Shown piece by piece: positions 2,924-43,883 of a DNA stretch of 64,000 bases. The stretch is taken from NCBI RefSeq assembly GCF_900112205.1, contig NZ_FOKW01000006.1, positions 1-64,000 of the forward strand, read 5' to 3'. How positions within the stretch are numbered: position 1 is the first letter of the stretch; each line of letters opens with the position of its first letter. The translations under genes and the position numbers were made by a program. Below the pieces are notes generated by a model. That model worked only from the letters and a program-made list of their open reading frames with translations. It searched no databases and had not been told where the DNA came from. The DNA comes from Natronobacterium haloterrestre (GTDB lineage Archaea; Halobacteriota; Halobacteria; Halobacteriales; Natrialbaceae).

Positions 2924-4261
2924 TCAGGACATTTCTGTAGCATGCTCGTCAGCTAACTCCACGACATCGTAGACATGGATGCCCGATTTGAACCACAGAA
3001 CACGGTCATCCATCCCCTCAAAATCCTCTGATGAGCAATCTAACCGCTCGGAGACGGCAAGAAGGAGGTTATCAGCATCTGCTTCCCGTATCTTCGTCAG
3101 CCTATCATCGAGGTATTCAGGCGTCCAAAGGCCCACAACTTCCAGAATTGCTCGGCGGCCATCGGGGTGTTCGACTGCGAAATCGGGTATCATCACCTCT
3201 GCGCCCAAGTCCAGCACATCATCCTCTCGGACGAGTTCCCAGTCTGTGTTTGCTCGTTCCCACTTCTGGGCGAGGGTCCGCTCTACGTCGCTGTCAAAAT
3301 CGCCCTGCGAACTGTAGTGGGATGAGAGGTCGTCGGTGTGGTCAAGGTCAAACGCGACAGTGTTCCCTGTAGCCTCGTCGCCGAGAATTTCTGCTTCCAT
3401 CTCCCAACGGTCACAGAGGGGGAGTGCAGGAAGGAAGTTAGCCATCCGAATTCCGTACTTCCGCGACTTAGAGAACAGCGACGCTGGACCGTCAAGTATC
3501 GCCTCGTACCCATCTGCGGCGTCTGTATCCGCTATACGGTTGCCAGCTCCATCTATGGGATAGATACGGTGCATGAGTCCAAACAGCTTGACGTAGCTGA
3601 ACACAGTTCCAAAGGAGTCCCAGACACGAATCTGCATCCGAGTCGCATCATACAGTACCGCCTGTGCGAGCGCTAGGTTGTATCGTGTAAGAAGCCAGTC
3701 AACGGTGATTGCGTCTTCAGCATAGGATTCCTCGCTGTCTCCCGTCAGTTGCGTCGTCGTGGAGGTCTTAGCTGAATCCTCGTGTCCATCGGAAACACGG
3801 TGTCCAAACTGAACGAGGCGCTTGTTGTCGTCGAGGTCTGCATACATCCCACGATAACACTCTTCGAGCGAGATACCCAGTTTATCAGCAACCGTGCTGT
3901 AGACCTCCAGCTTCTGCGTGTCCTCTCCGAGCGTCGGCTGACGGACAATCGGATACGTCTTGTTGGACTTCTGGAATAACAACTGGCGTATATCCTGTGG
4001 TTCGGCTGCTGCAACGGTCTCGAATTCGCACTCGTCCTTCAGCAGCTTTGCCAGCCCTTGTACGATTTTGTAGTCCGTATCTGCGATGGTGAGTTGGTCA
4101 ATTGTCTCCTCCAACTCACCTTTTGGCTCACCTATGTGGTCCTCAAATATCTGGATGAGCTCCGCTGCGGTTTCTCGATACTGTGGGTCGCCCACGTCGA
4201 TGAACAGCGGTTGTACCGTTCCGTTTCGCGTACGAGAGCGAGCGAGGTCAGCCGTCAGCAC
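2924..4261 (-). CDS. Bax1-type endonuclease (DUF790), XPB partner
   Basis: The 445-aa protein opens with 'MLTADLARSRTRNGTVQPLFID', typical of DUF790/Bax1. It ends with a nuclease core, 'IPDFAVEHPDGRRAILEVVG' (about residues 355-378), giving the PD…ExV pattern. Bax1 binds archaeal XPB and cuts DNA next to the unwound region in a nucleotide-excision-repair-like reaction. Length fits the family. The start overlaps the end of the XPB-like reading frame by 14 bp, the usual coupled XPB-Bax1 order. Oddly, the XPB gene here is truncated while Bax1 looks complete. It may be a mobile copy alongside a chromosomal pair. Confidence 0.85.
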   Translation of the reverse strand: MLTADLARSRTRNGTVQPLFIDVGDPQYRETAAELIQIFEDHIGEPKGELEETIDQLTIADTDYKIVQGLAKLLKDECEFETVAAAEPQDIRQLLFQKSNKTYPIVRQPTLGEDTQKLEVYSTVADKLGISLEECYRGMYADLDDNKRLVQFGHRVSDGHEDSAKTSTTTQLTGDSEESYAEDAITVDWLLTRYNLALAQAVLYDATRMQIRVWDSFGTVFSYVKLFGLMHRIYPIDGAGNRIADTDAADGYEAILDGPASLFSKSRKYGIRMANFLPALPLCDRWEMEAEILGDEATGNTVAFDLDHTDDLSSHYSSQGDFDSDVERTLAQKWERANTDWELVREDDVLDLGAEVMIPDFAVEHPDGRRAILEVVGLWTPEYLDDRLTKIREADADNLLLAVSERLDCSSEDFEGMDDRVLWFKSGIHVYDVVELADEHATEMS

Positions 4262-4952
4262 TGGTGCTCACCCCCTGACGACGGCGCGTAGAGACGTACT
4301 GCTCCTTCGTGTTGTCGGTAATGATTTCGTACAGGCGAGCGGGTTGGCGGTCATCTGTGGGGCGTAAAATCCGCCCGAGCCGTTGGGCGTATTGGCGTTT
4401 TGAAGCACTCCCCGAAAGGATGATGCCGACGTTTGCTGCAGGCACGTCGATACCCTCGTCAAGCACCTGCGACGTGACCAGCATCGAGTACTCGCCCGTG
4501 CGGAAGCGTTCCAGAATCTCCGTTCGCTCGTCCGTTTCTGTCTGGTGAGTGATGCATGGAACAACGAACTCTTTGGAGATGTCGTATGCGAAGTCGTTGT
4601 TCGCGGTAAAGATGATGGTGCGGTCATCGTGATGGCGCTTCAGCAGATTATCGAGCGTATCCAGTTTCTTTTCGGCAGTACGGGCTATCTCTTCGGCTCG
4701 TTGCTTCGCGACGAAGGCACGGCGACCTTGCGGGTCGTATGAAGACCGCTTGAGAAACTCCTGATAGCCTCTTTCTTTCCAGATGTCGAAATCGTGGTTG
4801 TCCACGTAGTCGCGATAAATCTGGTACTCCTCATCGTACTTCTCGCGTTCTTCAGAGGAGAGTTCAACCTTCAGATGGATAGTCTTGTACTCGCTGAGAT
4901 ACTCGCCTGCAAGCTCATCGACATTCTCCTCGTAGCATGACGGGCTTGTCGG
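4248..4952 (-). pseudogene. XPB/SF2 helicase, C-terminal half only
   Basis: The frame encodes 'DELAGEYLSEYKTIHLKVEL…' followed by helicase motif IV ('RTIIFTANND'), motif V ('MLVTSQVLDEGIDVPAANVG') and motif VI ('QYAQRLGRILRP'), all typical of XPB helicase domain 2. The damage-recognition region, Walker A and DExH box of domain 1 are absent. Upstream, the frame runs into a stop at 4953-4955 and the DNA no longer resembles XPB. The only in-frame starts are internal, such as GTG at 4805. Without motifs I-III it cannot be an ATPase. The break lies near 4,940, probably from a deletion or insertion. It could still act as a Bax1-binding fragment. Confidence 0.8.
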
Positions 4953-6298: not shown

Positions 6299-6688
6299 TT
6301 ATTTACGAGCGACTGCGTGACCAGGACCGACAACACGCGGTTCCTCCACAAAGAGATTCCCAACAGGAAGGTACACCGCGTCGCCGCCGCGTTCAATACG
6401 CACTGTGAATACGTCGTCATCTACGAGGTCGCCATCGAACACGAACTGAACGGCTTTCGGGCCACGGAACGACCCGCTTTCCCGAAGGACGTCGCGGAGT
6501 TCACGGACACCCTCATTGAGTTCGTCTTCGTCAGTCTCGTGGAGGAGGTCCTCGAGGCCAGTCACTGTAAGTCGGGGCGGGAGCGAGCCATCGGTAGCGA
6601 GTCGGCGGAAGAACGCCAATGCTGGCAGCTCCTCCTTGGTGTCCTCAATACGGTCGGTCACGAGATTGTAGCCGGCGTTGAGTGACAT
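6299..6688 (-). CDS. Unknown 129-aa protein, last gene of BREX-like operon
   Basis: A soluble protein of unknown family: an N-terminal helical region (1-65, 'YNLVTDRIEDTKEELPALAFFRRLA') with a Leu/Glu-rich middle, and a C-terminal beta-rich part ('AVQFVFDGDLVDDDVFTVRIE'). It starts 2 bp after the stop of the DUF1156 methyltransferase and is evidently cotranscribed with it. Its GC-rich codon use matches the ends of that gene. It does not resemble BrxA, BrxB or BrxF in any motif I can see. It may be a small accessory subunit peculiar to this operon layout. Confidence 0.7.
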   Translation of the reverse strand: MSLNAGYNLVTDRIEDTKEELPALAFFRRLATDGSLPPRLTVTGLEDLLHETDEDELNEGVRELRDVLRESGSFRGPKAVQFVFDGDLVDDDVFTVRIERGGDAVYLPVGNLFVEEPRVVGPGHAVARK

Positions 6689-6690
6689 GG

Positions 6691-9390
6691 TCAGAATTGG
6701 GAGAGGCTCATTTCCATCACGTTCTCGTAGCGGTCGTCACCCGTGGCGTCGGCGAGGAACTCGGCGAGCTCTTGCAGGTCGTCACTCTTCCACTCACTGA
6801 GATACTCGGACGTGTTCTGGTCGGTCTTGTAGAGGTGATAGAGGTACTGCACCTTGTCGATGTCCAGAAGTGCGTCCGAGTCCACGTTGTCACCACCGAG
6901 TGTCTGCTGGGTACCGTTCCCGTTCTGGCTGAGTTTCCGCTCGATGTGGTGTACTCGCTCGTCGGCAGAGACTGGCTCCTTCGTGTCACGCGGTCCCTTG
7001 ACGAGTTTCTCGTCCTCGAGGTCGCTGACGTTCAGGTTCTTCGCGAGCAGTTGTTTGTTGAGGTCGTCGTAGCCCTCGGGACCTCGCTGAACGAAGGCAG
7101 CGTACGCCTCGCTTATCGAGTCGATACTTGCCGGGAGGTTAACCGACCCCTCGAGTACCTGTTCGATGATGGAGTCCACGGTCTCGAGCGCCTCGTCGAT
7201 GCCAGCCTGCTCACCTTCAGAGTAGACGTTCGGGTAGTGACGAGAGTAGAAGTACATACACTTGCCACGGAGAATAACACCGAGGTCTGCCTTCGAGAGG
7301 TCCTCGTGTCGCTCTCGTTCTTCGGCAGCCATGTCTTGCAACTCGAAGAAGAGATTCTGCCGAAGCTCCGTAAGCGTGATTTCCTCATCGACTTGCTCCT
7401 TGTTGGCGAATACGAGGATGTCGTACTCTGCGTTATCAAGTTCAGAGATGTGTGGACTGTTCGGCATCTCCGACTGCACCGGGTACGCACCGGTGATAGT
7501 GAATCCACTCTCAATGAGGGCTTCGAGAATCACCGACCACGCTTCGTTCTCGTTGTGGTGATAGGTAAAAATCATCTCACCATCAGACTTCAGAACGCGG
7601 TGACACTCCGAGAAGACATTAGCAAGCGATTTGACAAAGAACTCCTCGTCCTTGTTTGCTTTCTCGTTAGCGACTATCTCTCGGGCTTTCGGCACTAGTT
7701 CAGGCTGGAACTCATCATATTCCTCTTTTAGACATTGGTGTAGCCAAACGTAAAAATAATCAGATAGTTTTGAATACTGGACGTTGTCGTAGTATGGTGG
7801 GTCAGTAATGATGTAATCTACGGATTCGTCATCTTCATTGATTCGCTCTGCTGTTGAGCAGTTTAGCTCCTTTACACGGTCTTCCTCAATTGATTCGTTC
7901 TCAATATAGAACTGCTCAACGTCACCTGTTTTTTGATTTTTCACTTTCTCAAATGGTCTCTCACAGTATTCCTTCGCTCTCAAAACTTTCTCAAAGAAGT
8001 TCTCGAGAGCGTTACGGCTCCCGTGACTATTGATTGGGTTCCCTTCAATCGGTTGTACACGTGGGATATAGGCATGACGCTCGAAAACGTGTCCTGAGAT
8101 TGAATAAGTGATACCCCATTTTACTAATTTCCCGTTGTATTCTAGATTATTTGAGACAGCTGTGACAAGGAATTCGGCGATATTTTGTGCATCTGCGTCA
8201 TCAAATTCCTTCTCCCGAGTTTTCCAAGCCCGGTCAAATAGTAGTCCAAATGTTAGAAGATGACGGTCTGTGAATATTTCATTAAATTGGTCGTAATTGT
8301 AGTTACGGAGAGCTCCTGTCGTCATCGCCATTCCCTCAGGAATCCTCTGATTTGGAATCGGTAAGTCTTCCCGAAGGCTATCAAAATGCTCCTTCGCAGA
8401 CTCAACTAATTCTGCATCCTTTGAATCAAACTCTTTGAATTTCTTGTCACCATGCGGGTCAACATACTGAAGGGCAAATCGGTCAAATTCCGGATTTTCA
8501 TCCTTTCTCTTCAACGTTTCTTTGATGTCGTGTTTGTGCCCGTTAGAACACGTGTATTTGCCCCATCCAGCGTTCCCATCACTCGGGTCAAATTCATGCC
8601 CACAGTTCGGACAAACCTCGTTTCCGTCCTCTGAGACCGTTACCTGCTCCCCAGCTTCAACCGTGACTGTTGTTCCTTCGTCAAGTCCTTTATCTCGGTC
8701 TTCCAGTTCGATAATACGGTCGTTGCAATCCTGATTGGGGCAGTACAGCACACCCGGACTGGTCTTCTTTGTTCTGGACAATTCATAGCGCGGGAACAGT
8801 TGAACTTCTTCGCCACATGTTAGGCAAGGGATTCGCTGTGCCTGGAAGTAATACAAGACTTCACACTCTTGCCCCGTCTCTGGGTCGATGGTAGTGTAGT
8901 AGTCTCCAAGTTCCTCACGGACCTCCTCCAGAATTCGGTTGAACTCGCGTTCGAGAACGTCGAGGTTCACGTCGTCCATCGACTTCTTCTCGGTCCACCA
9001 CGCGACCGGATTGAGTTCGTAGCCGATGACATCTGCACCAAGCCGGTTGCTCTCGACGAGCGTAGTCCCGCCTCCTGCGAAGGGGTCAAGGACAGTCACA
9101 TCGCGGTCGATGTGTTCGTCGTCCGGGTTGATTTTCGGGTCGTAGGAGTCAATGTACAGTCCGTCATGAGTCCCGCTCGACCGCCGCGTAAGGATGTCGT
9201 CTTTCGTAATGGTGTCATCCGTCATTGCTGCGAGAGCAAGAGAACGAAACGTCGAACCGGGACGACGCGCCCACCACTTATGGAGTGAGTAGATGGGACG
9301 GTACACGTCACGCCGGTAGGTTTCCTTCTCTGCCAGTGCGTCCATAAGGTTCAGCGGGAGTTTGTCCCAGGTTTCGATTTCGTCAGTCAT
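6691..9390 (-). CDS. DUF1156 DNA methyltransferase (PglX-like) with zinc clusters
   Basis: The 899-aa protein opens with 'RRDVYRPIYSLHKWWARRPGS', the DUF1156 signature. SAM-binding motif I is 'LDPFAGGGTTLVE' (about 101-113), and the catalytic motif 'TDPPYYDNVQYSK' lies near 530. This [D/N/S]PPY type fits an N6-adenine or N4-cytosine methylase. Four zinc-knuckle pairs lie at about 190-285 (CLTCG, CPNQDC, CPNCG, C…H.H). DUF1156 methylases serve as PglXI in type 3 BREX and occur in other defence islands. The gene follows the PglZ gene by 9 bp. Base composition is mosaic: about 7,700-8,900 is clearly AT-richer than both ends, suggesting exchange of the central part. The self-DNA modification role is inferred. 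Confidence 0.88.
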   Translation of the reverse strand: MTDEIETWDKLPLNLMDALAEKETYRRDVYRPIYSLHKWWARRPGSTFRSLALAAMTDDTITKDDILTRRSSGTHDGLYIDSYDPKINPDDEHIDRDVTVLDPFAGGGTTLVESNRLGADVIGYELNPVAWWTEKKSMDDVNLDVLEREFNRILEEVREELGDYYTTIDPETGQECEVLYYFQAQRIPCLTCGEEVQLFPRYELSRTKKTSPGVLYCPNQDCNDRIIELEDRDKGLDEGTTVTVEAGEQVTVSEDGNEVCPNCGHEFDPSDGNAGWGKYTCSNGHKHDIKETLKRKDENPEFDRFALQYVDPHGDKKFKEFDSKDAELVESAKEHFDSLREDLPIPNQRIPEGMAMTTGALRNYNYDQFNEIFTDRHLLTFGLLFDRAWKTREKEFDDADAQNIAEFLVTAVSNNLEYNGKLVKWGITYSISGHVFERHAYIPRVQPIEGNPINSHGSRNALENFFEKVLRAKEYCERPFEKVKNQKTGDVEQFYIENESIEEDRVKELNCSTAERINEDDESVDYIITDPPYYDNVQYSKLSDYFYVWLHQCLKEEYDEFQPELVPKAREIVANEKANKDEEFFVKSLANVFSECHRVLKSDGEMIFTYHHNENEAWSVILEALIESGFTITGAYPVQSEMPNSPHISELDNAEYDILVFANKEQVDEEITLTELRQNLFFELQDMAAEERERHEDLSKADLGVILRGKCMYFYSRHYPNVYSEGEQAGIDEALETVDSIIEQVLEGSVNLPASIDSISEAYAAFVQRGPEGYDDLNKQLLAKNLNVSDLEDEKLVKGPRDTKEPVSADERVHHIERKLSQNGNGTQQTLGGDNVDSDALLDIDKVQYLYHLYKTDQNTSEYLSEWKSDDLQELAEFLADATGDDRYENVMEMSLSQF

Positions 9391-9399
9391 GATTACCTC

Positions 9400-10317
9400 T
9401 TAGGTGTTGATTCGCAGAACGGGGGTCATGCACTCTGCAAGGCTGAAGCCACCGTGTTTGATTCTTTTCGATGCGCCACGTTTCGTCGGCGTGTAGTATC
9501 CCTTGACCACGTAGTAACCGCCGACGCGTTCGATAACTCCTGCCTCACGAAGCTGGTCGAACGCATATCCGTCTTCGACCTCGCGGAAGCGACTGCTGAA
9601 CTTGTTCTTGAGCGCCTCCGCATCGCTGTCGGAGAGTACGTAGGGATTCGTGTCGTGAACGTTGACGTACCCGTGGTCACTGGTTACAAGAAACTCGTTG
9701 TGGACGCTCTCGTTCACGATGTCTTCCAGCAGCCCCTTTACGTCCTCGTAGATGTCACCCATTTCCTCCGACGAGTAGTGTCCTTTGAAGGACTCCTCGA
9801 GCCGGCGGTCGGGATGGCGCGTCCACACGAACTCTGGGTCTGTGCCAGGCAACTGCGGTACGTCGAGGTCGCCGACGAATCGGTAGTCGTCTCGGTTGAC
9901 TGCTGACGGGCTATGTGCGTCAAACCATTCCCGGCAGATGAACTTCGTCTCCGAGGGGAGTCGCTCGATTGGTGCCCAATCCAGCGTCACATCCCAGCCG
10001 TTGTCTTCCGGGAGCTCGCGCAAGAGTTGGAACCCCTCTCGGAGACTCAGCGCGTCCATGATGACGCCACATCCGGAGTCCAGTCGCGTAATGGGATGGT
10101 CACCCATCGACTCTTTCAGCTCGTCATACAATTTAGGTTCTTGGGTGTCCAAGTGGTGCTCCAGCGAACGCGTCTTGTACTCGGCAGCGAGGTTCTCACC
10201 GACGAGTGCATTCGGTTGCGACCAGATACGGCGGAGACACTCGAAGGCACCATCGAGAACGGACTCCCGCCGGACGAGAGCCGCAAGCTCGTCCGCACCG
10301 TAGAGTTCGTCACTCAC
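9400..10317 (-). CDS. Short PglZ-domain protein (alkaline phosphatase fold)
   Basis: The protein carries PglZ landmarks: 'RLDSGCGVIMDALSLREG' (Asp80), 'VTSDHGYV' (Asp214/His215) and 'KHGGFSLAECMTPVL' (His288). PglZ belongs to the alkaline-phosphatase superfamily and is the hallmark of BREX/Pgl phage-defence systems. At about 305 aa it is far shorter than the usual 700-900 aa and is essentially the PglZ domain alone. I chose the GTG start at 10,317 because it overlaps the ATPase stop (GTGAGTGA, 8 bp) and gives a natural start (MSDELYGADE). The longer frame, from 10,383, would add a basic, unlikely leader. The metal-binding residues look kept, so it may be active. Confidence 0.85.
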   Translation of the reverse strand: MSDELYGADELAALVRRESVLDGAFECLRRIWSQPNALVGENLAAEYKTRSLEHHLDTQEPKLYDELKESMGDHPITRLDSGCGVIMDALSLREGFQLLRELPEDNGWDVTLDWAPIERLPSETKFICREWFDAHSPSAVNRDDYRFVGDLDVPQLPGTDPEFVWTRHPDRRLEESFKGHYSSEEMGDIYEDVKGLLEDIVNESVHNEFLVTSDHGYVNVHDTNPYVLSDSDAEALKNKFSSRFREVEDGYAFDQLREAGVIERVGGYYVVKGYYTPTKRGASKRIKHGGFSLAECMTPVLRINT

Positions 10318-13177
10318 CTTTCTCGACCTCCATCCAGACCTCGAACGAGGCGTCATCGGGAACGTCCAGCCGGAGGAGCACATCGTTCAGAAGTGCATCC
10401 CTCGATAGCGGCTCCTCCGGTGAGATTATCAGCGTCTCGTCAACCTCAACCTGGTCAGCGAGACTGTCAGCATCGAGACCTCGGCTTGCCACACCGTCGG
10501 CAGCCAGTGTTCCCGTATAGGACAGACTGACCGTGTGAATCGTCCATTCGATACCGAGTTCGCGTTCCAGTGTGTCGATAAGGCTCGGCTTGTCGTCGGC
10601 GTCCAACGCTCCCATTACCGGGAATCGTGTAGTCGTCGTGCCTTCCAGGTCTTCTTCCTCGACCTCGTCTTTCAACTCTTCGAAGGTCTGGACGAGTTCA
10701 GTGGCGTCTCCCCCCTCAACAGTGACTTTTCCTTCCTTGATGTCCGAGGCGTCGAACTCGAAGCCGCAGTCGCAACTCGTGCCCTGTAATTCGTCTCCGC
10801 ATTGCGGGCACGTGAAGATTTGTCCTGCACCGGATGTTCCTCCACTGCCCTCATCGGTTTCGGAACTCGAGGTAGTTCCGCCAGAAGACGTACTACTCGT
10901 TCCCGTGCCTCCTACTGAGGTCGAGTCAACAGTAATCGTCGCTGTCGCATCGTCGTCGTCTTCCTCCTCAACAGTCTGAACGTAGTCCTCGTGAACGAGG
11001 ACCGTATCATTCCCGATGCTCCCGACGCGCTCACCGAAGTACGTCCCGACCTTGATGACTTCGTCGCGACAGAGCGACTGGATAGCGTCCTTGAGCTCCT
11101 GTTCGTCCGTCAGCGTCGTGTACTTGGTATTCCGGTAGAAGTCGTTGAGGAGATGCTGGTACTGGATACCGCCACCTTCTGCCTCCTCAACGGCATCTTT
11201 CACCTCGGAACGAACCTGACTACTGTCGGGCCGAATCTCCTCGAGGGTAGCCGTGTAGAAGTCCATGTTCCCGCTCACGGAGATGTCCTGCGGGACGAGA
11301 CCTCGTTCGGTGGACGTGTGGACGGTCCCGTACTTGTCCCGAACGCGGTCGCGAAGGTTTTGGTAGTTTTGGTCGTGGATGTCGTCGAAGCCGTCTGGGA
11401 GTACCTCCTCCTCGTGGTCCAGCTGTTCACCAGCAACCACTTTTCGGGCGAGCTCCCTGATTCCAGTGTTTGAGTCTACGCTGGAGCGTTGCTGTGGCGT
11501 AACGAGGACGAGGGTGTTGTTGAACTCACGTTCTTGGCCCGTCGTGAGTTCCTCGAACTGCTGGTTGTACGCCTGTTGGTTTTGCTTGGCCGACAGAGAG
11601 ACGATGATTTGTAGCGTTTTGTTGTCCGGAATATCCTGTTCGGTATTGACCGGATTGAGGATATGAACGTTGTTGTGACCTTCGAACAGGTCCTCTTTGA
11701 TGAGTCGTTCGACGCGATGAATGGCAGTATTCTTGTGGATGTCCTCGGCCTTCTTTTCGATGCGGGCCGCCGGGTTCTCCTCTGTGTCGAAGGCGTATTC
11801 CCCGTTAATACGGAAGACGTGCCACGCGTGCCCAAAGAGGTCCTCGGTAAACGTCTGAATGATTTCATGAGCGTTCTTGCCCTTCCGCATGGTTCCCATG
11901 AGCATCTGGCGCTTGTTCGCCCCCTCCTCTCCGCCACGGGCAAGACTGTGGAGGAGAACGATATTCAACAACTCCTCGATATGCGGTTCGAAGATTTTCT
12001 CTCCCTCCTGCTCATCGGACGTTGCCTCACCGAGGCGGTGATAATCATTCAGGTACTTGCTAACCAATTCACCGTCGATGAACCGGAACCAACCGGTGTA
12101 CTCGAAGACGTCGATGTCACCAGTGAGGATGAGGTCAACCTCATGGTAATTGTCGGCGAAAATCTCAGTAAGGAGGTGGAGAAGACCGCGAGCGTCCTGG
12201 TGCCCCCGTTGTTCGGAGAACTTGTCCATCAGGGTATCCAGCGCTAGTGGATGGAAAGGATAGTACCGCTCGAGACGGTCTTCCATCTCTTGGTAGTCGG
12301 TGAGTTGAATCTGGCCGTTATTCCGGTACACATCCGCGTACTCCTGCGCTAATGAAGCAAGTCCATCGGGGTCGCTGACATCGCCAACCAGTCGATGTAG
12401 CAGGAATCGAATTTTTTCGTCACGACGACGGGAGAGGTCGTGACGGAACGGGTTAGTCCGTGGAAGAATCGCCTCTACGTCTGCCTCTTCGAACAGGAGC
12501 GAAACGTAGACTGCGAGTGGTGTATCGTCTCGCCCAGCAGCCTCGAGGAGGTTCTGGAGGAACCCGAGGTTATCGTCCTGATAGTCGGACCTACCGCTCA
12601 TTCCGAACCATCGCTCGAACTCGTCGATGAAAACTGCTGTGGGCTGGTCGTCGAGAGCATCCCGTATTTGATGAACGCCCGGTGGGTCGCCCTCTTTCCA
12701 TTCGTCGATGTCGAGGTACTCACCGACCGCGACGTGAAGCCTGTCGTAGTCGCGGTCGAGGTTGAGCATTTGAAGGGCAGCGGTTTGCGCGTTCGAGGGC
12801 AGTGTGGCTTCGATACCATTCTCGGTCAACCACTCCTGACCGATTTCTGGCGATGCGAACAGGTGGTACAGAACGAGCTCGATATGGCTTTTCCCACTCC
12901 CGAATTCGCCACCGATGATGTGCGCACCTTCCGAAACGCTTGAATCGGCATCGAACTTGTCTGCTGTCCGCTCGATGATTGAGGTAAGCGTCTCAGTCGG
13001 ATATGTGATGTTGAGAATTCGTTCAGCATCCTGTTCGGGCGATTCTCTACTGTCGTAGAGATTGTACAGACTGACTTCGTCAAGAAGGTTGTCAGCCGTA
13101 ATTTCTCCGTCCTCTCCCTGGATTTCCTCGGACGGAGTGACGTAGTCAGATATTACGCCGTCTGTCATCTGTCGCAT
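10310..13177 (-). CDS. Large P-loop ATPase, BrxC/PglY or DUF499-like
   Basis: The 955-aa protein has Walker A 'GEFGSGKSH' (residues 90-98) and Walker B 'AVFIDEFERWF' (181-191). The long helical middle follows. A four-cysteine zinc ribbon lies near 785-810 (CPQCG…CDCG), preceded by a Ser/Thr/Gly-rich linker (about 750-780). The segment 'ITYPTETLTSIIERTADKF…' before the P-loop matches DUF499/BrxC-type ATPases of defence operons. It is the first gene of the operon and overlaps the PglZ gene by 8 bp. A TATA-like TTATAAA lies about 40 nt upstream, and GGAG precedes the second Met at 13,168, so either Met could be the start. It likely powers DNA sensing or remodelling for the system. Confidence 0.85.
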   Translation of the reverse strand: MRQMTDGVISDYVTPSEEIQGEDGEITADNLLDEVSLYNLYDSRESPEQDAERILNITYPTETLTSIIERTADKFDADSSVSEGAHIIGGEFGSGKSHIELVLYHLFASPEIGQEWLTENGIEATLPSNAQTAALQMLNLDRDYDRLHVAVGEYLDIDEWKEGDPPGVHQIRDALDDQPTAVFIDEFERWFGMSGRSDYQDDNLGFLQNLLEAAGRDDTPLAVYVSLLFEEADVEAILPRTNPFRHDLSRRRDEKIRFLLHRLVGDVSDPDGLASLAQEYADVYRNNGQIQLTDYQEMEDRLERYYPFHPLALDTLMDKFSEQRGHQDARGLLHLLTEIFADNYHEVDLILTGDIDVFEYTGWFRFIDGELVSKYLNDYHRLGEATSDEQEGEKIFEPHIEELLNIVLLHSLARGGEEGANKRQMLMGTMRKGKNAHEIIQTFTEDLFGHAWHVFRINGEYAFDTEENPAARIEKKAEDIHKNTAIHRVERLIKEDLFEGHNNVHILNPVNTEQDIPDNKTLQIIVSLSAKQNQQAYNQQFEELTTGQEREFNNTLVLVTPQQRSSVDSNTGIRELARKVVAGEQLDHEEEVLPDGFDDIHDQNYQNLRDRVRDKYGTVHTSTERGLVPQDISVSGNMDFYTATLEEIRPDSSQVRSEVKDAVEEAEGGGIQYQHLLNDFYRNTKYTTLTDEQELKDAIQSLCRDEVIKVGTYFGERVGSIGNDTVLVHEDYVQTVEEEDDDDATATITVDSTSVGGTGTSSTSSGGTTSSSETDEGSGGTSGAGQIFTCPQCGDELQGTSCDCGFEFDASDIKEGKVTVEGGDATELVQTFEELKDEVEEEDLEGTTTTRFPVMGALDADDKPSLIDTLERELGIEWTIHTVSLSYTGTLAADGVASRGLDADSLADQVEVDETLIISPEEPLSRDALLNDVLLRLDVPDDASFEVWMEVEKGE

Positions 13178-13534: not shown

Positions 13535-14689
13535 TTATTCTACGTTATCTCGATAATCCTCAAAATCAAAGTCAGGATTGAGTTGATACTCATTCTCATC
13601 TATTTTTTGAAGAGGCTCATTTTCACCGGCGAAATTATCCAGTGGTATACGGCGGATTTCAGATAGCTCCCTCGTGAGAGCGAATGTTCTTTGGGCTATC
13701 TCTTCGGCAGTAAGTGTACAATCATAATTCTGGTCAAAGACTCGCAAAATCCAATCGTATCCGACCAAATATTGATATTCGAACCTTTCGGGCGGCTCAG
13801 AATCAATAAACCTGGCGAAGGCGTCGGGGAGACGGCTAATCAGCAATTCTCTAAGAATGTCCTCAGCATTTGTCGCTAACTCGTTCGCAGGAGTAGAGAC
13901 TCTATCTATATCTGCTACATCCTTGCCCTCGTGAACGATTTTATTTCGGGCGGTATACAACTCGTCTATCCTCTCGTTAAGTTCGCTCTCTTCTAAATTA
14001 GAAATTCTGTTGATTGGGACAGTGTTTCTAATTAACTTAGCTACTGCGACTGAGATAGATTGCTGTTTTATTTTCTCACCAAAGAGCTGTCCAATCCTCC
14101 CATGTAGTGTTGGATGTTCGTCTGGGTCAACTGAGTCCAGAGCAGCATCTTTCGCCCTCTCATATGCTCTTTCCTTCTCTTCATCAAAATCTTGTTCGTC
14201 TAATTCAACAAATGCCTCTATACCAGTCCACAATGCCACTAACTTATCTTCTGAAATACTCGTTGCAAGACCGTAATTATACCAATTAAGCGATTGTCGG
14301 GCTTTATCATCGCCATTGAGAACTGATTCTAAGTTTGCTCTCACTTGGTCAGCGGTCTTAATATTCAAATCATCAATAGGGTTGCTGACATCTACCATAG
14401 ATTGATTTGCTGCATCTGCAGGACGGATTCGATAATGTGGACCAAGCAAAATCCCATTTTCCGATACAAATGACAAAATACTCACATCCTTTCTGGCCTT
14501 CTTTTGTAGGCTTCCACGAGCAATATCTCGGGCCTCTTCCCGGTTATCAGCGTCAATTGTATATTGTAAAGCCGCGTTTGCATTTCGATTCTCCCCTCCT
14601 AACGGAATAAGAGTGCCCTCTCCTAACTCACCACCATCCTGGATATTAGCTGGTCCAAGCAGTCGGTACCGAATATTATATTCTGTCAT
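13535..14689 (-). CDS. HEPN-domain protein (ApeA-like), 384 aa
   Basis: The C-terminal half has 'EDKLVALWTGIEAFVE' (about 147-162) and 'ARNKIVHEGKD' (247-257). The latter gives the R-x4-H motif (Arg248/His253) of HEPN ribonucleases. The pattern is closest to Apea-like HEPN proteins, several of which cut RNA in antiviral responses. The N-terminal 120 residues are strand-rich and presumably sense or bind a partner. It is transcribed divergently from the first MBL gene, with 197 bp between them. It has no evident antitoxin neighbour of the MNT type. The HEPN call is good; RNase activity is inferred from the kept Arg and His. Confidence 0.75.
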   Translation of the reverse strand: MTEYNIRYRLLGPANIQDGGELGEGTLIPLGGENRNANAALQYTIDADNREEARDIARGSLQKKARKDVSILSFVSENGILLGPHYRIRPADAANQSMVDVSNPIDDLNIKTADQVRANLESVLNGDDKARQSLNWYNYGLATSISEDKLVALWTGIEAFVELDEQDFDEEKERAYERAKDAALDSVDPDEHPTLHGRIGQLFGEKIKQQSISVAVAKLIRNTVPINRISNLEESELNERIDELYTARNKIVHEGKDVADIDRVSTPANELATNAEDILRELLISRLPDAFARFIDSEPPERFEYQYLVGYDWILRVFDQNYDCTLTAEEIAQRTFALTRELSEIRRIPLDNFAGENEPLQKIDENEYQLNPDFDFEDYRDNVE

Positions 14690-28086: not shown

Positions 28087-29061
28087 CTACCCAATAACAT
28101 CTCTATAGCTCTCTCGTATGCTTTTTTCCTTGAAAGACAAATAGGCTTCTTCTGTAGTCTCTAAATCAGCGTGTCCGAGCATCTGGCGCAAAAATTCGAC
28201 ATTCCCTCCATCACTAATATATTTTATAGCAAAATTAGAACGGAAGTGCTGCGCAACGTATCTATAGCGCGGGTCTCCCTTTGCATCTGTGAACATAATT
28301 TCTTGAACGCCTGCATCTCTTGCCGTCTGTCGTACAATCCTATTCAGCCAGTTAGGGTGGATTTGCTCACTTCTGAGGCTTACCAACAAATACGGCGACT
28401 CTGAAGCGGGTTTGTAGCGTTTCCTGCCTACGTTCAGGTATTCTGTGAGTAGAGAATCTGTCCTGTTAGTATAATATACGGTCTTCTCTGCACCATCTCT
28501 CTTGGCAATTTGTATATTCTCTATTTTCCGATGTTCTCGACCTTCCTCTATTTGTTTCACGGTCACGCTACACAATTCGGACGCTCTAAGTCCTGTATCT
28601 CTCAATAATTGTATTATTAGTTTATCACGTATAGAGTCAGCTTCCCTTACCATCTGGTCTATTTTGTCAGAATCTAGCTCAATGACGCTCTCTCCTTGTT
28701 CTTCGACCTTCTTAGGGTTCGACGTACTCCATTCATCAGGCTTTATTTCGTCATCATATTCTTTTTCAGCTTCATCTACTGGATTATCTACGATAATCCT
28801 TTCAATTTCTAATGCTCTAAAATAAGCTCCTAAGTGCCTATACATGTTATATGTAGTAACTTTTGTGTAGGTGTTTTTCAGCTTGTTCAAGTATGAAAGA
28901 ATATCAAGTGCTTCAACATTTTCAGGCTCTAAATCTCGCTCCTTCAAAAATACTGCAAAGTGCTTTAGAGTGCTTCTTGCTTGCTTTAACGCATCTTCTG
29001 TATCCATATCACTTGCTATATGGTCTTTGCAACGCTCCCAGTATGGTACGGTCTCTGTCAT
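28087..29061 (-). CDS. Tyrosine recombinase/integrase (XerC/D-like)
   Basis: The 324-aa protein has an N-terminal SAM-like DNA-binding region (1-110) and a C-terminal catalytic domain. Visible residues are Arg159 in 'RDTGLRASEL', Arg274 in 'AQHFRSNFAI', His297 in 'LGHADL' and nucleophile Tyr307 in 'EEAYLSF'. In the HxxR box the usual His position is Gln271 (Q-H-F-R), a minor oddity. Such enzymes integrate and excise mobile elements at att sites. Its gene starts 2 bp after the stop of the RHH-like gene, so they share a promoter at 29,440. Being about 0.4 kb from the GC boundary, it is the likely integrase of this island. Confidence 0.92.
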   Translation of the reverse strand: MTETVPYWERCKDHIASDMDTEDALKQARSTLKHFAVFLKERDLEPENVEALDILSYLNKLKNTYTKVTTYNMYRHLGAYFRALEIERIIVDNPVDEAEKEYDDEIKPDEWSTSNPKKVEEQGESVIELDSDKIDQMVREADSIRDKLIIQLLRDTGLRASELCSVTVKQIEEGREHRKIENIQIAKRDGAEKTVYYTNRTDSLLTEYLNVGRKRYKPASESPYLLVSLRSEQIHPNWLNRIVRQTARDAGVQEIMFTDAKGDPRYRYVAQHFRSNFAIKYISDGGNVEFLRQMLGHADLETTEEAYLSFKEKSIRESYRDVIG

Positions 29062-40793: not shown

Positions 40794-43700
40794 ATGAGCG
40801 AGGCCGACGCCGAGGCGGCGGAGCCGACACCCGGCAAGACCGAGGTCTGGATCGAGAAGTACCGGCCGGACCGGCTCGACGAGATCAAGGGCCACGAGAA
40901 CATCGTCCCGCGGCTGAAACGGTACGTCGAGCAGGACGACCTCCCCCACCTCATGTTCGCGGGGCCGGCGGGCACCGGCAAATGTGTCACCGGTGAAACG
41001 CCGGTACTGACGAACAAGGGTGTTGCCCCGATCTCGGACATCGTCGGGGATAGTGACGGGTTCAAGACGCCGGACGACGACCTCGAGATCCTGACCTACG
41101 ACACCGACGGGACGTTCGAATACGTCGCTCCGTCGTACGTTTTCTCCAAAGACGCGACTGATCTCGTTTCGATCGAGACTCGAGACGGGAACGAGTTCAC
41201 GGTCACGCCGGAACACAAACTTCTCGTCGCGGACGAGACGGGACTCGAGTGGCGAGAGGCTGGATCGCTGTCGGGCGATGAACGGATCGTTCGGCCACTC
41301 GAAACATCACTTACCGACAACCCGTCCACGTCACTCGACTGGCTCTCGTCGATGGACGGCGACCGGACGTTCGTTACGGTCTCGGAGTCGTTCGCCGAGA
41401 AACACGATATTCCGGCCGAAGAAAACTACGTCGGCCAGAAGAAGACGGTGATCGGCTGTCTTCGACGCGGTTATTCGGTCGACGAGATTACCGCTGAGTA
41501 CGATATCGCTCGGAAAACGGCACAAAATTACGCACGAGACGTCTCGATCGATCTCGAGAAGCCATCGACGACCTGTTCACTGGAATATCTTCGGTCGCTT
41601 GGGGTTGCGGAATCGGAACTCCGAACTCACGTCGAATCGGTACAGTATGTCACCCCGTACAACAATCGATCCACTCCGATTACGCCGGCATGGGAACTGA
41701 CCCCTGACCTGGCACGTTTCGTTGGTCTCGCGATCAGTGAAGCACGGATCGAAAACGGTCGAATCAAGTTCTATAACACGGACGACGCGCTCTGCGAGTC
41801 GTTCGAACGGATCGCACGGGACCTGTTCGACGTCGAGACGACCCGTGGCACACACAACGATATCCCGTTCGTCGAACTCCGGACGAAGTCGCTGCATCAT
41901 TTCCTCGAGTCCTGCTTCGATGTCTTCGCCGACTCGTCGGAATCAGCCATCGGTTCGACTATCGTTCACGCTCCTGACGACGTTCGAGCGGCGTTCCTGC
42001 GGTCCGTCTTCGACTCGGAGGCGTACGTCGCGGACCAGGCGACGATCGAACTGACACAGAAAGACGAATCGGTTATTACGCTCTGTTCCTATCTGCTCGC
42101 CTCGTTCGGAGTTCCGACGAGGCGGAAACGCATCGAGAAGACGGCAACGAACGGCTCCCAAACGGAACAGGAGTACCACGCACTGTATATCTCGGGTGTC
42201 TCGGCGCTCTCACGGTTCGAAGACGCGGTCGGATTTACTATCGACTACAAGGGCGATCGACTCGCTGACGCGACGTCAGGCACGGGGAATCCGAACCACG
42301 ATACGATGCCCGCACAGACGGCCGTCGATAACCTCTGTCGAACGCTCGCGTTGAAAAAAGAGCCGCTAGTGACCGAGTCCCTAAACCCTGACACCCCCGG
42401 TCGTGAATCCTACCTCGAGGACATCGATTGCGTGTTGGAGGCCGCGGCCGACCGTCTCGAGACGGCACAACAGGTCAAACGAGAGATCGACCAGGTCCGA
42501 ACTGATATCCGATCGACGACTGCAGTTCCGACGGAGTGGATCGACCAGCGGGAGGCAATGGAACCGCTCGAAGCGCGAAAGGAGGTGGAATCCACGACGG
42601 GGATTCGGACGGACCGTTTGCTGGAATACGCGGACGGGCGACGATCCCCGCCCGCACGGCGCGCCAGCGAGTTGCTCGTTACGCTCGAGTCGCGCGCCGA
42701 AACGCCAGATATCTCCGCAATACAGGAATCGCTTTGCGAGGCGATAGATGCACTCGGCGTCTCGGACAATCGAGTCGCCGAGGGAACGGAGTTACTCGGG
42801 ACGGACGTCCGAAATCTCCTCGAGAACGACGATCACGACCTCGGATCGCTACCGCGGTTCGAGACCGTCGCCGATCGTATTCTCGACGTCGCCGACGAGA
42901 TGTGTTCGATGGAAGTCGTTGAACAATTGGTCACGCTCGATCGGCTTTCACGCGGGACGCTCTATTTCGATCGTGTTTCGAACGTCGAGCAAATTCAGGA
43001 CGAGCGTCGCGTTTACGACCTCACGGTGCCCGGAACGCGAAACTACGTAGCGGGTGACGTGCCAACGGTCATGCACAACACGACCGCAGCACAAGCCATC
43101 GCCCGCGAGATCTACGACGACGACTGGCGGGAGAACTTCCTCGAACTCAACGCCTCCGACCAGCGCGGGATCGACGTCGTCCGCGACCGGATCAAGGACT
43201 TCGCGCGGTCCTCGTTCGGCGGCTACGACCACCGCATCATCTTCTTGGACGAGGCCGACGCGCTCACCAGCGACGCCCAGTCCGCGCTTCGTCGCACGAT
43301 GGAGCAGTTCTCGAGCAACACCCGCTTTATCCTCTCGTGTAACTACTCGAGCCAGATCATCGACCCCATTCAGTCCCGGTGTGCCGTCTTCCGTTTTACC
43401 GAACTGACAGACGACGCCATCGAGGCCCAGGTCCGCGAGATCGCCGCCGAGGAGGGGATCGAGGTGACCGACGACGGCGTCGACGCCCTGGTGTTCGCGG
43501 CCGACGGCGACATGCGGAAGGCGATCAACGGCCTCCAGGCCGCGGCCGTGATGGGCGAGACCGTCGACGAGGACACCGTCTTCGCGATCACCTCCACCGC
43601 CCGCCCCGAGGAGGTCGAAGAGATGGTCGAACACGCCATCGACGGCGACTTCACCGCCGCCCGCGCGGCCCTCGAGGACCTGCTGACCGACCGCGGGCTC

Positions 43701-43883
43701 GCCGGGGGCGACGTCATCGACCAGCTCCACCGGTCCGCGTGGCAGTTCGACATCCCCGAGCGGGCGACGGTCCGACTGCTCGAGCGGCTCGGCGAGGTCG
43801 ACTACCGTATCACGACGGGTGCGAACGAGCGGCTGCAACTCGAGGGGATGCTGGCGTCGCTGGCGCTGGAAGACGAAGAGTAA
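40794..43883 (+). CDS. rfcS: Replication factor C small subunit, interrupted by an intein
   Basis: The 1029-aa product is a 330-aa RFC small subunit plus an inserted 699-aa intein. The extein has '[23 protein letters not shown]' (Walker A), '[11 protein letters not shown]' (Walker B), '[16 protein letters not shown]' and C-terminal collar helices. RFC loads the PCNA sliding clamp onto primed DNA. The intein splits the Walker A lysine from the following Thr-Thr, so it must splice out for function. The gene stands alone. Insertion at the P-loop is a well-known intein site in RFC and other ATPases. Confidence 0.95.
40983..43079 (+). mobile_element. Intein in the Walker A loop of RfcS, 699 aa
   Basis: It begins with Cys64 ('[20 protein letters not shown]', block A) and ends '[12 protein letters not shown]' (block G His-Asn), followed by Thr+1. 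Block B is '[13 protein letters not shown]'. The endonuclease LAGLIDADG motifs look worn: '[13 protein letters not shown]' and '[11 protein letters not shown]', where the usual GDG/ADG acidic position reads Glu. At 699 aa it is larger than most inteins, with an added helical stretch after about residue 530. Splicing residues look complete; homing activity may be lost. Confidence 0.92.

Follow-up and report, generated by a model that had tools for sequence, protein, structure and literature searches.

Four closely spaced genes of the haloarchaeon Natronobacterium haloterrestre, predicted to encode a large ATPase, a bare PglZ domain, a DNA methylase and a small protein, raise the question whether so short an operon can constitute a complete defence system or is left over from a larger one. 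The contig on which they lie (NZ_FOKW01000006.1, 303 kb, from a genome of 4.5 Mb) is considered here over its first 64,000 nucleotides, a stretch hereafter referred to as the window. The antiviral mechanism of bacteriophage exclusion (BREX)-type systems is unsettled, and the nuclease role of PglZ was shown recently, in systems of six genes that contain further candidate effectors. The present set, which occurs naturally and consists of a PglZ domain with little else, a methylase, a single ATPase and a small helper, is far smaller, and could serve to ask whether PglZ acts as the effector, whether the system requires a helicase at all and which role the iSTAND protein plays. The current annotation appears to overlook the operon, its proteins being labelled as hypothetical protein, alkaline phosphatase or DUF499 protein.

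We consider it probable that the operon represents a complete, mobile and restriction-modification-like defence module, namely a helicase-less variant of the Type-3 BREX-Related (BR) systems with PglZ as its nicking effector.

Gene content and organisation

The operon is encoded on the minus strand in the following order:

10310..13177, minus strand: DUF499-family AAA+ ATPase of 955 aa (DUF499 in its relatives, HmaC match, Walker residues; first gene in 30/30 loci)
9400..10317, minus strand: stand-alone PglZ of 305 aa with a GTG start at 10317 (family profile, Foldseek, tree clade)
6691..9390, minus strand: DUF1156 amino-methyltransferase of 899 aa (Pfam N6_N4_Mtase and DUF1156; PADLOC HmaB)
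6299..6688, minus strand: small fourth protein of 129 aa, a probable iSTAND (BrxB/BrxF-like) subunit (in all four-gene loci; position; weak P-loop resemblance of the model)

An overlap of 8 bp joins the ATPase and PglZ genes, while gaps of 9 bp and 2 bp separate PglZ from the methylase and the methylase from the small open reading frame (ORF), distances which an earlier note on this DNA had given and which were verified with exact coordinates in the window. The open frame of PglZ opens at 10383; the GTG at 10317 was taken as the start since it fits the relatives. Eight proteins of the window locus were compared with PADLOC, NCBIfam and Pfam, and none of them matched BrxA, BrxL or another BREX helper.

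In a survey of the class, 34 of 391 genomes proved to contain relatives of the PglZ. The weakest matches include a few long PglZ proteins (810-832 aa), two of which (L062 and L063) were taken for ordinary BREX. Leaving out the loci with long PglZ, 20 kb were read around each of 30 loci, that is the window and 29 others of the survey. The same four genes were present in the same order in all 30 haloarchaeal loci, and since these belong to independent genomes the arrangement is not a matter of chance. The earlier note, which had proposed such a neighbourhood survey, was right in describing the genes as one operon. With the PglZ alignment as query 17 named loci were found, which overlap the survey set and all contain the small gene, whereas the single window PglZ retrieved nothing from the genome contigs. 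Searches of viral contigs with the haloarchaeal PglZ and of phages with the bacterial PglZ gave no hits.

The loci form a close (ATPase 47-89% identical) and a distant (~27%) subfamily, and no constant fifth gene of any kind was found among the 30. Beyond haloarchaea the genes were identified in non-halophilic archaea of methanogen type, where one locus (L111) comprises exactly four genes and another (L110) the four genes and then a HerA-type ATPase. The latter gene (13182-14366 of L110) directly follows the small gene, at the position of the SNF2 helicase in bacteria, and could be a substitute motor. The operon is thus reduced and recurrent, as had been supposed, but not confined to haloarchaea.

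The bacterial kin examined always carry an SNF2 helicase, insertions interrupt the loci L060 and L051, and a fragment of an XPB helicase (4248-4805) is located 1.5 kb downstream of the window operon. On these grounds the four genes might be regarded as a degenerate remnant of a Type-3 BR or BREX system which has lost its helicase and no longer works in defence. However, the four-gene state is found in every haloarchaeal locus read, in two distant subfamilies and in L110 and L111; all four genes are under purifying selection, with ratios of nonsynonymous to synonymous substitutions (dN/dS) of 0.04-0.12 against close relatives at saturated dS; the active-site residues are invariant; and conservation of the operon does not extend to its XPB/Bax1 neighbours. 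A remnant is therefore highly improbable. Given the two subfamilies, L110/L111, the lack of a constant fifth gene and the low dN/dS, the operon is not a broken fragment, which agrees with the earlier note.

The stand-alone PglZ protein

Searched by itself, the window PglZ fails to match Pfam PglZ (E = 0.22), a family which is matched by 12 of 16 relatives. The family profile, on the other hand, matches the solved BREX PglZ structures 9nv3 (E = 4e-12) and 9zn5 (1.4e-7) as well as PorX (2.6e-7), so that the identification passes the profile search suggested by the earlier note at the level of the family. The best ten Foldseek matches of the AlphaFold model are all PorX, and BREX PglZ comes next. 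In the PglZ tree the archaeal and bacterial stand-alone proteins form one clade (99/98) apart from the long BREX PglZ. The description of the protein as little more than the PglZ domain holds, as it consists of a single domain.

The window protein is confirmed, at the level of its sequence, as a member of the PglZ family with intact active-site residues:

9946..9948, minus strand: T124 of the PSET motif, aligned with the catalytic threonine T271 of PorX; invariant across archaeal and bacterial relatives
9670..9678, minus strand: metal-site motif D214-H215-G216; invariant in both PglZ alignments
9448..9456, minus strand: H288-G-G motif, aligned by motif with the metal-site histidine H741 of BREX PglZ; invariant in both PglZ alignments

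T124, D214-H215 and H288 are invariant together in the alignment of archaeal and bacterial relatives. The catalytic threonine of PorX was located by comparing chains with the T271V mutant. As T124 aligns with PorX T271, it corresponds to T538 of BREX PglZ, which is needed for nuclease activity and whose replacement (T538A) ablates this activity and cuts defence about 1000-fold (PMC12205998). The same paper equates PorX T272 with PglZ T538 and describes the role of H741.

PorX and PglZ also cleave cyclic and linear oligonucleotides (PMC12205998). Since PorX provides the best structural matches and the compact archaeal PglZ is without the extra domains of BREX PglZ, the protein may be imagined to cleave a nucleotide second messenger or to deplete nucleotides, leading to growth arrest and not to DNA restriction. 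Taking into account that BREX PglZ nicks double-stranded DNA as well, that an HNH nuclease holds the PglZ position in one haloarchaeal locus (L145), and that no further gene is constant in the loci and hence no nucleotide cyclase, this alternative seems rather unlikely, and a nicking effector is the preferred reading of the PglZ protein.

Relation to BREX-Related and BREX systems

The window ATPase on its own matched no Pfam family, and its profile had no match in the PDB. At the family level the assignment is clear, as 14 of its 15 relatives match Pfam DUF499, and DUF6079 (BrxC/PglY) is matched in only 1 of the 15; PADLOC HmaC matches the window protein itself (4e-18). Of the models against which the earlier note had proposed to search, it is DUF499 and not BrxC/PglY to which the ATPase belongs. 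The nucleotide-binding motifs are as follows:

12887..12910, minus strand: Walker A of the ATPase, residues 90-97 (GEFGSGKS), with G90, G93, G95, K96 and S97 invariant in the alignment of 15 relatives
12620..12625, minus strand: acidic pair D185-E186 of Walker B, invariant in the same alignment

DUF499 is the centre of the BR systems and is kept apart from BrxC/PglY (Rakesh and Krishnan, NAR 2026, PMC12839542), and therefore the locus is placed with the BR systems, nearest to Type 3, and not with BREX. Type-3 BR comprises a DUF499 ATPase, a DUF1156 methylase, a nuclease-free SNF2 helicase, a stand-alone PglZ and, in 82% of taxa, an iSTAND protein (PMC12839542). This type has been known since January 2026; the paper has 134 archaeal Type-3 BR taxa, counts the helicase among the core components and states that Type-3 BR retains it.

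For comparison nine bacterial Type-3 BR loci were used, from plasmids of Aminobacter, Klebsiella, Tenderia and Ensifer and from five IMG/VR contigs. All nine show the order ATPase, PglZ (~330 aa), methylase (~1070 aa), small protein (165-174 aa) and SNF2 helicase. The archaeal operon shares with them the DUF499 ATPase, a PglZ without fused domains belonging to the clade mentioned above, a DUF1156 methylase with conserved Cys pairs (zinc fingers) in an insert, the gene order and the small gene after the methylase. It differs in the absence of the SNF2 (BrxHII-like) helicase gene, in a shorter small protein (129-132 aa) and in a shorter methylase (~900 aa). In the Klebsiella plasmid locus (L118, 12886-15763) genes of a SIR2 and an ATP-binding protein are inserted between PglZ and methylase.

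Further systems are more remote. Hma or Type-1 BR (helicase, methylase and DUF499 ATPase) has in common with the operon an HmaB-like methylase (2e-42) and the HmaC-like ATPase, but the archaeal operon is without an adjacent helicase-nuclease HmaA and contains PglZ and the small protein. BREX type 3 likewise possesses PglZ, a P-loop ATPase and a PglXI-like methylase; in contrast to it, the archaeal operon lacks BrxA and BrxHII, no BrxF was recognised by profile, the ATPase belongs to DUF499 instead of BrxC, and PglZ has 305 aa compared with ~800 aa including N-terminal domains. The trees of the ATPases and of the methylases both set the operon's proteins apart from Type-1 and Type-2 BR outgroups, with long deep branches and a poorly supported order of the archaeal lineages. 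According to the sequence comparisons the operon is best read as a four-gene, helicase-less relative of Type-3 BR and not as BREX proper. The designation BREX/Pgl-like is accordingly replaced, and the gene missing in comparison with the kin is that of the SNF2 helicase. Judged from the text of PMC12839542, operons of just these four genes, without a helicase, have not been described as the normal condition in archaea, which is a provisional statement.

When 51 PglZ-bearing loci with their flanks were searched with a profile built from the helicases of the bacterial loci, the only matches were an ORF of 446 aa in a single genome (L046, identical with L100) and a weak DEAD-box match in L110. The operon may nevertheless be a Type-3 BR system which is completed in trans by an SNF2 protein encoded elsewhere, given that 25 of the 34 carrier genomes contain at least one SNF2-type match somewhere. 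However, no such match was detectable in the other nine, among them the genome (G321) whose operon is closest to that of the window, and the matches lie in ORFs of varied length, none of which is linked to an operon except the one in L046/L100. A helicase in trans is thus distinctly unlikely, and the operon is preferably read as helicase-less.

Three sister loci of haloarchaea without PglZ (L144, 8896-15227; L145, 8878-19011; L150, 8896-15236) encode the same ATPase and methylase families and a homolog of the small protein (E values from 2e-12 to 3e-15), with McrBC/GmrSD-type genes nearby; no published name was found for them. At the PglZ position of L145, flanked by the genes of ATPase and methylase, there is instead an MTaX1-HNH nuclease, and the gene before the small one encodes a GmrSD nuclease.

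The methylase and its exchangeable segment

The methylase directly matches Pfam N6_N4_Mtase (4.2e-16) and DUF1156 (4.6e-6), the latter as anticipated in the earlier note, and is the HmaB-like protein referred to above. The following parts were distinguished:

9064..9087, minus strand: motif I DPFAGGGT, residues 102-109, with D102, P103, F104, G106-G108 and T109 invariant in the alignment
7792..7803, minus strand: catalytic motif IV DPPY, residues 530-533, invariant in the alignment
7951..8493, minus strand: hypervariable segment, about residues 300-480, the probable target-recognition part (identity profile against relatives)

In the hypervariable segment the identity to the methylases of L037 and L038 drops to 47-68% (other segments 68-98%), but reaches 77-87% to that of L039. 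The window methylase resembles L039 in this segment, while the ATPase and PglZ of the window resemble L037. Residues ~300-480 have therefore been swapped independently of their neighbours, which fits a recognition domain.

As the operons are often located on plasmids or islands, they might also be epigenetic or plasmid-maintenance modules, in which a methylase serving regulation or inheritance is central and controlled by PglZ, and which do not act against viruses. Both the exchange of the recognition segment and the swapping of effector genes, however, are traits typical of restriction systems, and antiphage activity is cited for components of the related Type-1 BR (Hma) in PMC12839542. Such a module is very unlikely in our view, and a restriction-like function remains the preferred one.

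The small fourth protein

The small protein (129-132 aa, with 5-8 invariant residues) is encoded in every four-gene locus and has homologs in L110 and L111. No significant match was found in Pfam, PADLOC or NCBIfam, or by Foldseek with its model (pLDDT, the predicted local distance difference test, 77; one good model of five). Its gene follows the methylase gene just as the 165-aa gene does in bacterial Type-3 BR, and both proteins share a short stretch of the form S..xFLR..LP..VxVxGL. It is tentatively regarded as a probable iSTAND (BrxB/BrxF-like) subunit. The earlier note had seen a small unknown protein and no helpers; BrxA, BrxL and a helicase are indeed absent nearby, but since the small gene occupies the iSTAND position, the operon may in fact include a helper. 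An apparent fusion of iSTAND and helicase in L134 was rejected as the product of an over-extended start, the small ORF being separate.

Distribution and mobility

The operon appears to be located on an integrated low-GC element. Its region (window 1-31000) has 46-58% GC compared with 63-72% in the chromosomal part (32000-64000), and a tyrosine integrase is encoded at 28087-29061. The distribution of PglZ loci among the genomes of the class is patchy. Plasmid-borne operons were detected in Halorubrum lacusprofundi, Halobacterium salinarum, Haladaptatus, Haloplanus and others, and the cultured carriers include Halorubrum lacusprofundi (WP_012660078-81), Haloferax larsenii and Halobacterium salinarum (plasmid).

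In a sub-branch of the distant subfamily (L035, L054, L057 and L058) a 284-aa Dam-like adenine methylase directly follows the four genes; the extra gene of this type is labelled DNA adenine methylase in H. lacusprofundi. In the related archaeal locus L108 a probable nucleotidyltransferase/HEPN toxin-antitoxin pair, read from the sequence, lies between PglZ and methylase (1311-2026).

Proposed mode of action

The DUF1156 methylase presumably labels the host's own DNA at a specific motif, which can be exchanged. The DUF499 AAA+ ATPase and the small P-loop-like (iSTAND) protein would assemble on unmarked or invading DNA and license the complex, and the stand-alone PglZ, with its metal-dependent phosphodiesterase fold, would as the effector nick the invading DNA and thereby block replication. 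As there is no dedicated SNF2 motor, any ATP-driven step would come from the DUF499 ATPase. This restriction-like model is supported by the HNH nuclease in the PglZ slot of L145, the exchange of the methylase segment, the patchy spread, the plasmids and the low-GC island.

Several points weigh against it. The bacterial comparison loci belong to one fairly narrow group, and the 25 genomes with SNF2-type genes elsewhere leave room for a helicase in trans. Confidence in the PglZ model is low (pLDDT 55.5). The model of the small protein resembles AAA+ P-loop domains over ~103 residues with a Z score of 4.9, which is below the safe level, and when it was compared by profile with the 165-aa protein of bacteria the match was borderline (P ~0.04; 1 of 40 shuffles scored higher).

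In a stricter form, the operon would be a minimal four-protein PglZ restriction system without any helicase or translocase, old and stable, widespread in archaea and with an exchangeable PglZ slot (e.g. HNH); for this the chances appear evenly balanced. If it were true, the operon would offer the simplest natural setting with PglZ as the sole effector.

Neighbouring genes in the window

An ORF upstream of the ATPase gene (13535-14689), with weak HEPN and DUF4007 signals below the cut-off, was rejected as part of the operon owing to a gap of 357 bp and the lack of relatives beside other copies of the operon. The XPB fragment (4248-4805) and Bax1/DUF790 (2924-4261) were likewise rejected as fifth and sixth components, as they are not conserved with the operon. 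The fragment is a 185-aa C-terminal piece of an XPB/Rad25 helicase directly before the intact Bax1 (DUF790) endonuclease gene, so that the XPB-Bax1 pair beside the operon is truncated. Further along the window (40794-43883) an intein that carries a LAGLIDADG endonuclease domain splits a replication factor C small subunit.

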